The position numbers were made by a program, and so were the translations under genes. This document shows, piece by piece, positions 52,702-57,304 of a DNA stretch of 64,000 nucleotides. Origin of the DNA: Aeromicrobium tamlense (GTDB lineage: Bacteria > Actinomycetota > Actinomycetes > Propionibacteriales > Nocardioidaceae); assembly GCF_013408555.1 (NCBI RefSeq), contig NZ_JACBZN010000001.1:2542001-2606000 (forward strand). The letters run 5' to 3'. The notes beneath the pieces were generated by a model. The model worked only from the letters and a program-made list of their open reading frames with translations. It was not told the DNA's origin and did no database searches. The stretch's first letter is position 1, and every line of letters starts with the position of its first letter.

Positions 52702-54372
<1,671 letters not shown>

Positions 54373-54399
54373 CTAGCACTCTCACTATACGAGTGCTAA
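54373..54399. promoter_or_regulatory. CIRCE element (HrcA operator) of groEL
   Basis: On the plus strand CTAGCACTC-N9-GAGTGCTAA. It matches the CIRCE consensus with a single mismatch at the first base of one arm. Confidence 0.93.
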
Positions 54400-54413
54400 T
54401 CCCGCCCGTTCAA
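54384..54413 (-). promoter_or_regulatory. groEL promoter
   Basis: On the minus strand -35 TTGAAC (54408-54413) and -10 TATAGT (54384-54389) with an 18-bp spacer. The -10 lies inside the CIRCE spacer, so HrcA binding would block it. Confidence 0.8.
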
Positions 54414-54456
54414 GCGACCCCGCACCCGAGGTCGGCCGAGGCCCCGGCCCCGATGC

Positions 54457-54660
54457 CTAGTGCAGCGGCTGGACGTTCTCGGCCTCGCGCCCCTTGGGGC
54501 CGTCGACCACCTCGAGCTCGACGTTCTGGCCGTCCTCGAGGGTCTTGAACCCGTTGATCGCGATCTTCGACCAGTGGACGAAGACGTCGTCCTGGCCGTC
54601 GACGGCGATGAAGCCGTACCCCTTGTCGGAGTTGAACCACTTGACGGTGCCATGCACCAT
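54457..54660 (-). CDS. cspA: Cold-shock protein (CspA family)
   Basis: 67 residues, classic single cold-shock domain. It starts [17 protein letters not shown] (RNP1 KGYGFI) with VFVHWSKI (RNP2), and ends [11 protein letters not shown]. It binds single-stranded RNA or DNA. AGGTGG precedes the ATG by 5 nt, and a leader of about 50 nt is likely from a GATACGCT-like box near 54709-54716. This groEL-cspA pair recalls the arrangement I remember from Streptomyces. Confidence 0.97.
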
Positions 54661-54759
54661 GAGACCACCTGTTCTGCGGGGGAAGGCCCGCTGCCGGACC
54701 CGGGACCAGCGTATCGGCAGGCGCGTGAATCGCCTACGGCGGACTGGCCGAAAGCCTGC

Positions 54760-55038
54760 TCAGCAGCCGCCGGCGACCGCGGGGATCACCGAGATCTGGG
54801 TGCCGTCGGGGGTCTTGGTGTCGAGGCCGTCGGCGAAGCGCACGTCCTCCTCGGCCACGTACACGTTGACGAAGCGGCGCAGCTTGCCGTCCTCGTCGAC
54901 GATGCGGGCCCGGATGCCGGGGTAGGCGGTCTCGAGCGAGTCGAGCACGGCGCTGAGGCGGTCGCCCTCGGCGCTGACCTGCGACTCGTCGTTCGTGTAG
55001 CTGCGCAGGATCGTGGGGATGCGGACGGACACGGCCAT
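54760..55038 (-). CDS. MoaD/ThiS-like sulfur-carrier protein (CysO-like) ending in Gly-Gly-Cys
   Basis: 92 residues, beta-grasp fold. It opens SVRIPTILRSYTNDESQV and includes RFVNVYVAEEDVRFADGL. It ends ISVIPAVAGGC, close to mycobacterial CysO as I remember it. Sulfur carriers are adenylated and thiocarboxylated on a terminal Gly-Gly. Here one Cys follows GG, so processing by a JAMM-type protease would be needed before activation, as in some HcyS/QbsE-type systems. The gene is 32 bp downstream of the threonine-synthase homologue and probably shares its SAM-riboswitch-controlled mRNA. GGAG precedes the ATG at 55038. Confidence 0.88.
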   Translation of the reverse strand: MAVSVRIPTILRSYTNDESQVSAEGDRLSAVLDSLETAYPGIRARIVDEDGKLRRFVNVYVAEEDVRFADGLDTKTPDGTQISVIPAVAGGC

Positions 55039-55070
55039 GGGGGCTCCTCGGGTGGTTTCGGTCGGACGGC

Positions 55071-56336
55071 TCAGGCGATGCCGGCCGCGGCGAAGGCGTC
55101 GTAGGTGGGGGCGATCGTGGCGCGCGGGCCGACGGAACCGGCGACCGCGTCGAGCGTCTTGAGGCCGTGACCGGTGTTGATCACGACGGTCTCGAGCTCG
55201 GGGTCCAGCTGGCCCGTCTCGACGAGCTTCCTCAGCACGGCCACGGTGGTGCCACCGGCGGTCTCGGTGAAGATGCCCTCGGTGCGCGCGAGCAGGACGA
55301 TCGCGTCGCGGATCTGGTCGTCGTCGACCTCCTCGACGCCGCCGCCGGTGCCGCGCGCGATGTCGAGCACGTAGATGCCGTCGGCGGGGTTGCCGATCGC
55401 GAGCGACTTGGCGATCGTGTCGGGCCGCACCGGCCGGATCGCGTCGACGCCGTCCTTGAACGCGGTGGCGACGGGGTTGCAGCCCTGCGCCTGCGCGCCG
55501 AAGACGCGGTACGGCTTGTCCTCGACCAGGCCCAGCGCGATGAGCTCCTGGAAGGCCTTGTGCACCTTCGTCAGCTGGGAGCCCGAGGCGACGGGGATGA
55601 CGATCTGGTCGGGCAGGCGCCAGCCGAGCTGCTCGGCGATCTCGTAGCCGAGCGTCTTGGAGCCCTCGGCGTAGAACGGCCGCACGTTGACGTTGACGAA
55701 CGCCCAGCCCTCGTCCTCGCCGGCGATCTCGCTGGCCAGCTTGTTGACGTCGTCGTAGTTCCCGTCGACGGCGACCAGGTTGTCGGTGAAGATCGCCGAG
55801 TTCACCTGCTTGGGCGTCTCGAGGTTGCTCGGGATGAACACGACCGTGCGGATGCCGGCGCGGGCGCCCGCGGCCGCGACCGCGTTGGCGAGGTTGCCGG
55901 TCGACGGACAGGCGAAGACCTTGCTGCCGAACTCGCGCGCGGCGCTGAGCGCGCAGGCGACGACGCGGTCCTTGAAGGAGTTGGTGGGGTTCGTGCTGTC
56001 GTCCTTGACCCACAGCTTCGACAGGCCCAGCTCGGCCGCGAGGTTGCGCGCGTCGAGCAGGCGGGTGAAGCCCGGCTCGAGGTTGGGGCTGTCCTCGATG
56101 TCGGCGGGGACGGGCAGCAGCGCCTTGTAGCGCCAGATGTTCGTGGGGCCGGCCTCGATCTGCTCGCGGGTGACCGTGCCGAAGTCGTAGGCGATCTCGA
56201 GCGGGCCGAAGCACTCGTAGCAGGCGTAGTGGGGACCGAGCTCGCGCGTGGCGCCGCACTCGCGGCACTTCAGGGCGGTGGCGGGGCCGAAGGCACCCTC
56301 GCGAAGGGTGGTGCGGTCAGGGATCGTGACACTCAC
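55071..56336 (-). CDS. Threonine synthase homologue with N-terminal zinc ribbon, SAM-riboswitch controlled
   Basis: 421 residues; PLP-dependent fold type II. An N-terminal zinc ribbon (CRECGATRELGPHYACYEC) leads into LWVKDDSTNPTNSFKDRVVACAL (Schiff-base Lys), ACPSTGNLANAVAAAGARAG and VIPVASGSQLTKVHKAF. GNPADGIYVLDIARGTGGGVEEV and ETAGGTTVAVLRKLVE follow. Threonine synthase acts on O-phosphohomoserine. The SAM-I riboswitch upstream and the sulfur-carrier gene downstream suggest a sulfur role, possibly homocysteine formation. GTG 56336 is chosen because GGAG lies 5 nt upstream; the ATG at 56351 lies inside the riboswitch P1 stem. thrC is the conservative alternative. Confidence 0.88.
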   Translation of the reverse strand: MSVTIPDRTTLREGAFGPATALKCRECGATRELGPHYACYECFGPLEIAYDFGTVTREQIEAGPTNIWRYKALLPVPADIEDSPNLEPGFTRLLDARNLAAELGLSKLWVKDDSTNPTNSFKDRVVACALSAAREFGSKVFACPSTGNLANAVAAAGARAGIRTVVFIPSNLETPKQVNSAIFTDNLVAVDGNYDDVNKLASEIAGEDEGWAFVNVNVRPFYAEGSKTLGYEIAEQLGWRLPDQIVIPVASGSQLTKVHKAFQELIALGLVEDKPYRVFGAQAQGCNPVATAFKDGVDAIRPVRPDTIAKSLAIGNPADGIYVLDIARGTGGGVEEVDDDQIRDAIVLLARTEGIFTETAGGTTVAVLRKLVETGQLDPELETVVINTGHGLKTLDAVAGSVGPRATIAPTYDAFAAAGIA

Positions 56337-56347
56337 GACGACTCCAT

Positions 56348-56457
56348 TCATCTCTCCGGGCCGGCGTTCGACCGCGGACGGAATTAGCACCTGGCCGGTG
56401 GTCGGCTGGTTGCTGGGGCTTCGTCGGGCCGTGTCCCTCTGCCCCTCGGGATGAGTG
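56348..56457 (-). promoter_or_regulatory. SAM-I (S-box) riboswitch in the leader of the threonine-synthase homologue
   Basis: Read on the minus strand, P1 is formed by TCATC (56450-56454) and GATGA (56348-56352). The conserved core AGAGGGA (56434-56440), GGCCC (56426-56430), GAAGCCCC, GCAACC (56408-56413) and GGTGCTAATTCC (56380-56391) is intact. The P1 3' strand abuts the GGAG Shine-Dalgarno sequence at 56342-56345, so SAM binding probably limits translation initiation. Confidence 0.9.
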
Positions 56458-56462
56458 ATGCC

Positions 56463-56468
56463 AGCCTA
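56463..56468 (-). promoter_or_regulatory. -10 box of the riboswitch-controlled operon
   Basis: TAGGCT on the minus strand, about 7 nt before the riboswitch 5' end. A weak -35 TGGACG lies 18 bp further upstream (56487-56492). Confidence 0.6.
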
Positions 56469-56530
56469 GGGGCGCGTCTCACGATACGTCCACTTCGTCC
56501 GGATGCCGAGACGAGCGGGAGGGGCGAGCG

Positions 56531-57304
56531 TCAGACCGGGGCGAACCGGTCGGCGAGGTCGCCGAGCCAGGCCGCGACGTCGTCGGGCCCGTCGAGCACC
56601 ACGTCGGCGAGCGCGACGAGCGCGTCCTGCTCCTCGGAGGCCGAGCACACGAGGGTGACGTCCATCCCCTGCTCGCGCAGGGCGATGGCCTCGCGGAACG
56701 CCGGCAGGTCGCCGAGGTCGTCGCCGGCGTAGATGACCGCACCGGGCGAGACGCGGCCGATGATGCCGCGCAGGGTCTGGCCCTTGTCGGTGCCCGAGGC
56801 GCGCAGCTCGATCACCTGGCGGCCGGGCTCGAGGTGCAGGCCGACCTCGGTGGCGAGCGCCTCGATCTGCGGAGCCAGCTCGTCGAGCAGGCCCGGCGCG
56901 ACGCCGCGCGTGTGCAGCGCGATCGCCAGGCCCTTGTCCTCGACCCGGATGCGCGACGCATCGTGCTCGCGCATCCACTGCGGCAGGCGCGCGGCCAGCT
57001 GCGAGACGGCCTCGGGGCGCGACGGCCGGGTCAGCTCGCCCGTGGCGGCGTCCCAGCGCTCGGCGCCGTACTGGCCGCAGACGACCAGGTGCTCCAGGCC
57101 GTCGCCCTCCTCGAAGCGGCCGAGCCGGCGCACCTGGTCGACGGGACGTCCGGTGATGATCGCGATCGTCCCCAGGATCGGCCCGAGACGCCGCAGCGCC
57201 GCGAGGGACTCGGGGTGGATGTACGCCGACGCGGGGTCCTCGACGATCGGCGCGAGCGTGCCGTCGAAGTCCAGCGCGAGCAGGGTGCGCCCCGGATCAG
57301 TCAT
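56531..57304 (-). CDS. otsB: Trehalose-6-phosphate phosphatase
   Basis: HAD-superfamily phosphatase releasing trehalose; 257 residues. Motif I is LLALDFDGTLAPIVEDPASA, motif II AIITGRPVDQV, motif III with Lys in SGTDKGQTLRGI, and motif IV VIYAGDDLGDLPAFREA. GTPase-like cap features match OtsB. Its synthase partner otsA lies divergently at 58300. The ATG at 57304 has CATACT 6 nt upstream, a weak leaderless-type -10. Confidence 0.95.
   Translation of the reverse strand: MTDPGRTLLALDFDGTLAPIVEDPASAYIHPESLAALRRLGPILGTIAIITGRPVDQVRRLGRFEEGDGLEHLVVCGQYGAERWDAATGELTRPSRPEAVSQLAARLPQWMREHDASRIRVEDKGLAIALHTRGVAPGLLDELAPQIEALATEVGLHLEPGRQVIELRASGTDKGQTLRGIIGRVSPGAVIYAGDDLGDLPAFREAIALREQGMDVTLVCSASEEQDALVALADVVLDGPDDVAAWLGDLADRFAPV

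Follow-up and report, generated by a model that had tools for sequence, protein, structure and literature searches.

Organization of the metM-metO locus

The window analysed here is a stretch of 64,000 nucleotides (64 kb), corresponding to positions 2542001-2606000 of the single-contig genome of Aeromicrobium tamlense (3,367,060 bases). It carries a SAM-I riboswitch aptamer followed by metM, a gene for a threonine synthase (ThrC)-like PLP enzyme with a zinc ribbon, and by metO, a gene for a small sulfur carrier; csp and groEL lie further downstream (Table 1). The distance from the aptamer end to the GTG start of metM is 8 nt, and that from the metM stop to the metO start is 32 bp. An open reading frame of 439 aa from position 56390 was rejected as the gene start, since it begins within the aptamer.

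Table 1. Features of the metM-metO locus and its downstream neighbours in the window
Feature	Position	Strand	Remarks
SAM-I riboswitch aptamer (S box leader)	56345..56457	-	RF00162, full model
Shine-Dalgarno GGAG, probable	56342..56345	-	read from sequence; overlaps final aptamer base
metM, ThrC-like PLP enzyme with N-terminal zinc ribbon	55071..56336	-	421 aa; GTG start (inferred)
metO, ThiS/MoaD-family sulfur carrier	54760..55038	-	92 aa; PF02597 ThiS, 51.9 bits; ends AVAGGC
csp, cold-shock protein	54457..54660	-	PF00313; downstream synteny marker, outside the pathway
groEL	52702..54339	-	ORF translation; downstream synteny marker, named from translation

A sequence-only reading of this DNA had claimed an intact SAM-I aptamer at 56348-56457, a zinc-ribbon PLP threonine synthase homologue directly after it, and a carrier gene 32 bp further on. 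All three were recovered: the aptamer as a full-length match on the minus strand, the enzyme by its matches to PALP and TIGR00260, and the carrier by its ThiS match and -GGC end. The RF00162 (SAM) match covered model positions 1-108 of 108 with 74.6 bits (gathering score, 44.4; E=1.2e-15), and it was the sole Rfam match at gathering score in the window. When all 133 candidates in the genome were scored, this was the single SAM-I. In the aptamer alignment, 93.1% of cells were paired, compared with 40.2-45.5% in slid versions, and 14 of the 31 pairs were changed on both sides (shuffled mean, 10.0), with both counts leaning towards the model to which the alignment was fitted. Covariation of the aptamer is strong, and together with the score above the curated cut-off it identifies the element as RF00162.

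Immediately 3' of P1 lies a purine-rich, Shine-Dalgarno-like stretch. Among the 80 relatives, 79 have their first in-frame start codon, which this count assumes to be the start, 9-19 nt past the aptamer; one locus gave a negative distance and was left out, and it was taken as L099, whose BLAST match ran into the aptamer. Control by an intrinsic terminator was rejected. The search of 54300-56700 found no terminator-like site, a weak test because only 1.1 would be expected by chance, and the better argument is that the spacing between aptamer and start codon leaves no room for a terminator. Folded alone, the leader (56320-56460) did not stand out clearly from shuffled sequences (z -1.19; 24 of 200 were equally good), and its minimum-energy fold was without P1, the 5' strand of which pairs with the start-codon region. 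From the anatomy of the leader, P1-mediated translational control of metM is the simplest reading. Plentiful SAM would stabilise P1 of the aptamer, and because the 3' end of P1 touches the Shine-Dalgarno sequence, translation of metM, and probably of metO too, would then be turned down.

MetM is set apart from ThrC

The metM product matched PALP (PF00291) with 231.6 bits and TIGR00260 thrC with 258.1 bits, which is above the cut-off of 167.1, and its five best relatives among solved structures were all threonine synthases (best E 1.4e-47). The zinc-ribbon residues C24, C27, C39, and C42 were invariant across 18 aligned sequences. MetM and ThrC of the window genome shared 34% identity over 343 residues.

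In a tree of 139 of the 140 sequences (one of <=300 aa was omitted), the MetM set and ThrC were parted by a branch of 1.88; the earlier reading had suggested such a tree as a check. The support printed for the MetM node was low (0.438), possibly through displacement by re-rooting, and the ThrC set was scored as non-monophyletic on the same tree, which we ascribe to a root placed within the ThrC set. Because of this node support, the separation rests on the branch and on diagnostic columns, defined as columns at least 97% uniform in the MetM set and in the ThrC set and differing between the sets. There were 40 such columns: ThrC lacks 11 of them, 10 of these around the zinc ribbon, and the other 29 are substituted. 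The SFKDR motif with the PLP lysine is common to both sets. Several of the substituted columns fall in a segment that reads NSVNPxR in ThrC and NVNVRPxY in MetM, and which we take to be the phosphate-binding segment of ThrC structures.

SAM-I, metM, and metO are conserved as a unit

In a phylum sample of 100 genomes, 39 matched MetM at E<=1e-60; besides the genome of the window itself, these were 36 with an identity of 53-67% and 2 with one of 36-39%. The best 80 orthologous loci of a profile search were also fetched. They are 63-88% identical to the window MetM, and the nearest was from a Propionibacteriales MAG, followed by Nocardioides, Marmoricola, and Aeromicrobium and reaching Streptomyces, of which the sampled orthologs showed 63-67% identity. 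SAM-I lies ahead of metM in all of these best 80 actinobacterial loci (model R1). Of the 29 loci in the more distant phylum set, 20 were scanned and only six had it, so that the switch is a feature of just part of the MetM family. The metO gene adjoins metM in 72 of the best 80 loci and in 21/29 of the more distant set. The claim that SAM-I, the ThrC homologue, and the carrier form one unit is well borne out by these counts, and the linkage is far beyond chance.

Eight of the 80 loci were without adjacent metO, and only one of them (L133) was cut by a contig end. The other seven (L062, L065, L079, L090, L095, L096, and L131) carry SAM-I and metM without adjacent metO despite flanking DNA.

In the Streptomyces loci, csp and groEL are located downstream of metM-metO in the same order as in the window. 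The window thus combines a MetM ortholog with a downstream Gly-Gly carrier and an upstream SAM riboswitch, and the locus is, as judged by sequence, operon order, SAM-I, and the csp/groEL neighbourhood, the ortholog of Streptomyces metM-metO.

Carrier tails and the supply of sulfur and acceptor

In this carrier family, residues past the C-terminal Gly-Gly must be removed before the glycine thiocarboxylate forms. The window MetO has the Gly-Gly followed by Cys. Among the 72 adjacent carriers, 50 end in GG, 17 in GGC, and five otherwise (GGSR, GGS, GGQ, GGAR, GGAV). The window genome encodes three ThiS-family carriers, including a CysO-like protein 57% identical to MetO. This CysO-like carrier (L021:7000-7278) ends in AVAGGAA, that is, with two residues past Gly-Gly.

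Whole-genome searches covered 50 metM genomes, comprising those of 49 of the 80 loci and the window's own. A JAMM protein was present in 50/50, with exactly one in the window genome. The window genome also holds one full ThiF protein, which has a rhodanese domain, besides two partial ThiF matches below the cut-off. The Mec-like JAMM protease and the MoeZ-type activator for which the sequence-only reading had suggested a search are therefore each represented once. Trimming of MetO and CysO by one shared JAMM peptidase may be suggested from this anatomy. According to passages of PMC3227635, a single mycobacterial MoeZR protein sulfurates both MoaD-type carriers and CysO, and since it serves both types, a single activator for all three carriers of the window genome is plausible.

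The same reading had proposed looking for a second thrC beside hom/thrB, and a canonical hom-thrC-thrB cluster was found at about 2.066 Mb. Its thrB product (homoserine kinase) matched TIGR00191 with 204.1 bits; the supply of O-phosphohomoserine and the carrier activator are thus both encoded in the window genome. The window metM is not linked to hom/thrB, where a different gene, thrC, occupies that place, and a ThrC of the hom-thrC-thrB type was found in 49/50 metM genomes. With this separate cluster, threonine synthesis should not depend on the metM copy. A mec-cysO-cysM cluster is located at 2.30 Mb. Two TrpB-like proteins, named from reading of the sequence, were also noted, one a PLP protein of 450 aa (L020:6809-8161; genome about 646.8-648.2 kb) and another apart from it at 1.05 Mb.

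Coexistence with metX-metY

The earlier reading had pointed to metX and metY as the conventional genes to be weighed against the MetM route. They were found as an adjacent pair at 2.894-2.896 Mb, and with metX-metY present MetM/MetO is not the sole homocysteine route; it does not replace the conventional one in this genome. The metY product scored 648 bits with TIGR01326, over the cut-off. The metX product scored 365 bits with TIGR01392, under the cut-off of 500, and 393.5 bits with NF001209 (cut-off, 331). No metX exceeded 500 bits with TIGR01392 in the 50 genomes or in 14 controls. Of the 50 metM genomes, 24 were found to have metX, and these same genomes, with no others, to have metY, adjacent in 24/24; the pair was absent in 26. 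The metX matches comprised 23 full ones at 355-448 bits and one partial one (G108, 185.7 bits), which was counted as present, and weak paralogues of 143-171 bits were excluded. MetA (PF04204) was detected in one of the 50 genomes, one without metX-metY.

The window MetX (genome 2895457-2896437; L022:10458-11438) has 327 aa and is without two pieces that were kept in 6/6 relatives, a loop following HALTGDS and the segment DPxxxxGxY. The relatives' sequences were trimmed to 380 aa and their starts were not defined, so that the comparison excludes the N-terminus. The Ser, Asp, and His that presumably serve in catalysis are in place. Judging from its sequence, the window MetX may be impaired.

SAM-I was found in 50/50 metM genomes, in a search with strict filters that scored up to 60 candidates per genome and may miss weak copies. 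Exactly one copy was found in 47 genomes, and this must be that of metM, as each locus carries one. A second copy was found in Lentzea (L096), Yinghuangia (L104), and Pseudonocardia (L131); these second copies are shorter (94-97 nt) and lie on a different contig from metX-metY. Because of the strict filters, we rescanned the metX-metY regions, namely 23 others, extended by about 2 kb both ways unless the contig ended sooner, plus the window genome's own. SAM-I was found beside metX-metY in 0/24 by model R1 and by Rfam; in the R1 rescan the positive control (L060) was recovered and the sole other match had 11.7 bits (E 0.85). SAM-I thus goes with the MetM route, whether the conventional pair is present or not.

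In a Nakamurella MAG (the genome of L090), a SAM-IV riboswitch (L195:1585-1701; 110.3 bits) lies ahead of metY-metX. With SAM-I on metM, this genome has two SAM switch classes on two homocysteine routes. The metX-metY pair is therefore not always free of SAM control, SAM-IV being present in 1/24. Genomes were searched for six of the seven loci that lack adjacent metO despite flanking DNA, and five of these six hold the pair, versus 18 of 43 with adjacent metO; the association is weak (p 0.086, kinship ignored).

Proposed route and alternatives

We consider it very probable that the operon is metM-metO and would direct a carrier-fed, SAM-controlled synthesis of homocysteine. The sequence-only reading had proposed that a ThrC-like enzyme combines O-phosphohomoserine with a thiocarboxylated carrier to give homocysteine, and this gains support, as it is the reaction reported for MetM/MetO, of which the locus appears to be an ortholog. 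The reaction of MetM and the sulfur transfer are those that we infer by homology to the Streptomyces system. The JAMM peptidase would probably first remove the terminal Cys of MetO, and MoeZR (ThiF plus rhodanese) would then activate MetO and load it with sulfur, forming a thiocarboxylate at the C-terminal Gly-Gly. The abstract by Hasebe and colleagues reportedly names thiocarboxylated MetO as the sulfur donor. MetM would bind O-phosphohomoserine from ThrB, eliminate phosphate, and add the sulfur of MetO-COSH to yield homocysteine, which would lead to methionine and SAM.

Several observations speak against this assignment: TIGR00260 matches over its cut-off, and metX-metY is present, so that a homocysteine route may exist without MetM. 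The loci lacking adjacent metO, the few SAM-I elements in the more distant phylum set, the low support at the MetM node, and the leader fold without P1 also count against it. The TIGR00260 match would suit a true second threonine synthase, with SAM-I tuning how much O-phosphohomoserine goes to threonine and how much to methionine and with the carrier as a chance neighbour, and so would a cyanobacterial homologue for which passages of PMC12172450 report threonine synthase and deaminase activity in vitro, while judging it not fully MetM in cells. A plain threonine synthase was rejected in view of the separate hom-thrC-thrB cluster, which has its counterpart in nearly all metM genomes, and adjacency of metO in 72/80 loci does not look accidental. 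SAM-I is an OFF switch; cutting threonine at high SAM would probably be the wrong direction for sparing methionine. We therefore regard a second threonine synthase as unlikely, although it is the strongest of the alternatives.

Since metX-metY occurs in 24/50 metM genomes, the window's included, the operon might instead be a SAM-controlled remnant without an important role, with metX-metY doing the work. The chance of this seems slimmer still, because SFKDR and the zinc ribbon are intact and conserved, the aptamer is intact, and it is the window metX that is without two segments kept by its relatives. Least probable of all is that MetM draws on the carrier to make a different sulfur compound, such as cysteine from O-phosphoserine in the manner of CysM/CysO. 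The carrier family is the same and the genome's own CysO-like carrier is close to MetO, but MetM scores with ThrC models and far lower with cysM, and SAM-I control points to methionine. A role in cysteine synthesis was rejected because mec-cysO-cysM already exists in the same genome.

For the carrier-fed route in dual-route actinobacteria, we tentatively propose, at somewhat less than an even chance, that MetM/MetO would be the SAM-tuned branch and metX-metY mostly without a SAM riboswitch (23/24), that the JAMM that trims CysO would also trim MetO with GGC and other tails, and that one JAMM and one MoeZR would tie cysteine and methionine synthesis together.

In many Actinomycetota, a gene annotated as 'threonine synthase' can in fact encode a likely methionine enzyme, and SAM-I marks it. 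The coexistence with metX-metY (24/50) raises the question of why there are two homocysteine routes and which answers to SAM. There is also a caution for automated pathway tools, in that missing metX-metY need not mean methionine auxotrophy; the protein thiocarboxylate pathway of methionine synthesis was missing from pathway databases in 2017, as stated in a passage of PMC5764234.

Comparison with known systems

MetM resembles threonine synthase ThrC in fold, in the SFKDR motif with the PLP lysine, and in the expected substrate O-phosphohomoserine; unlike ThrC, it has a zinc ribbon and a carrier neighbour, comes with SAM-I control, and differs at the 29 substituted diagnostic columns. HcyS/HcyD/MetY of Wolinella produces homocysteine from a protein thiocarboxylate, as proposed for MetM/MetO. 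Its PLP enzyme is of the MetY type, with the Cys/Met metabolism fold, in place of a ThrC homologue, and its acceptor is an acylated homoserine in place of O-phosphohomoserine. CysM-CysO-Mec of mycobacteria includes a JAMM peptidase. As described in passages of PMC3227635, it shares with the present system a thiocarboxylate carrier, a PLP fold-II enzyme, and a MoeZR activator. MetM is, however, a different PLP enzyme with a different acceptor, and the window genome has a separate mec-cysO-cysM.

The thiocarboxylate-carrier route to homocysteine is already published for Streptomyces, and the idea is not new. MetM (ThrC-like) and MetO (carrier) were described in Streptomyces albulus (Hasebe et al., 2024; Appl Environ Microbiol 90:e01247-24), as cited in passages of PMC12172450 (mSystems 2025), where MetM is stated to convert O-phosphohomoserine into homocysteine. 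The same passages report a SAM riboswitch upstream of S. albulus metM and none at the cyanobacterial gene, a resemblance of S. albulus metO to a putative sulfur-carrier gene beside cyanobacterial thrC, and 51.6% identity to S. albulus MetM for the cyanobacterial homologue next to this metO-like gene. Neither MetM nor Hasebe was found in a 2026 review (PMC13257386). In the open-licence literature, we recognised no further paper on MetM/MetO, and among the papers listed for SAM riboswitches together with threonine synthase or thrC, none had a title on this system. Relative to the citing-paper passages, the present analysis adds the constancy of SAM-I at metM in 80 close orthologs, the coexistence with metX-metY in 24/50 genomes, and the survey of carrier tails.

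Like MetM/MetO of S. albulus as reported in these passages, the window has a ThrC-like enzyme, an adjacent carrier, and an upstream SAM riboswitch, and like the Streptomyces loci in our sample it has csp and groEL downstream. Unlike the reported S. albulus system, it belongs to a Nocardioidaceae host that has metY-metX besides, and its carrier ends in GGC.
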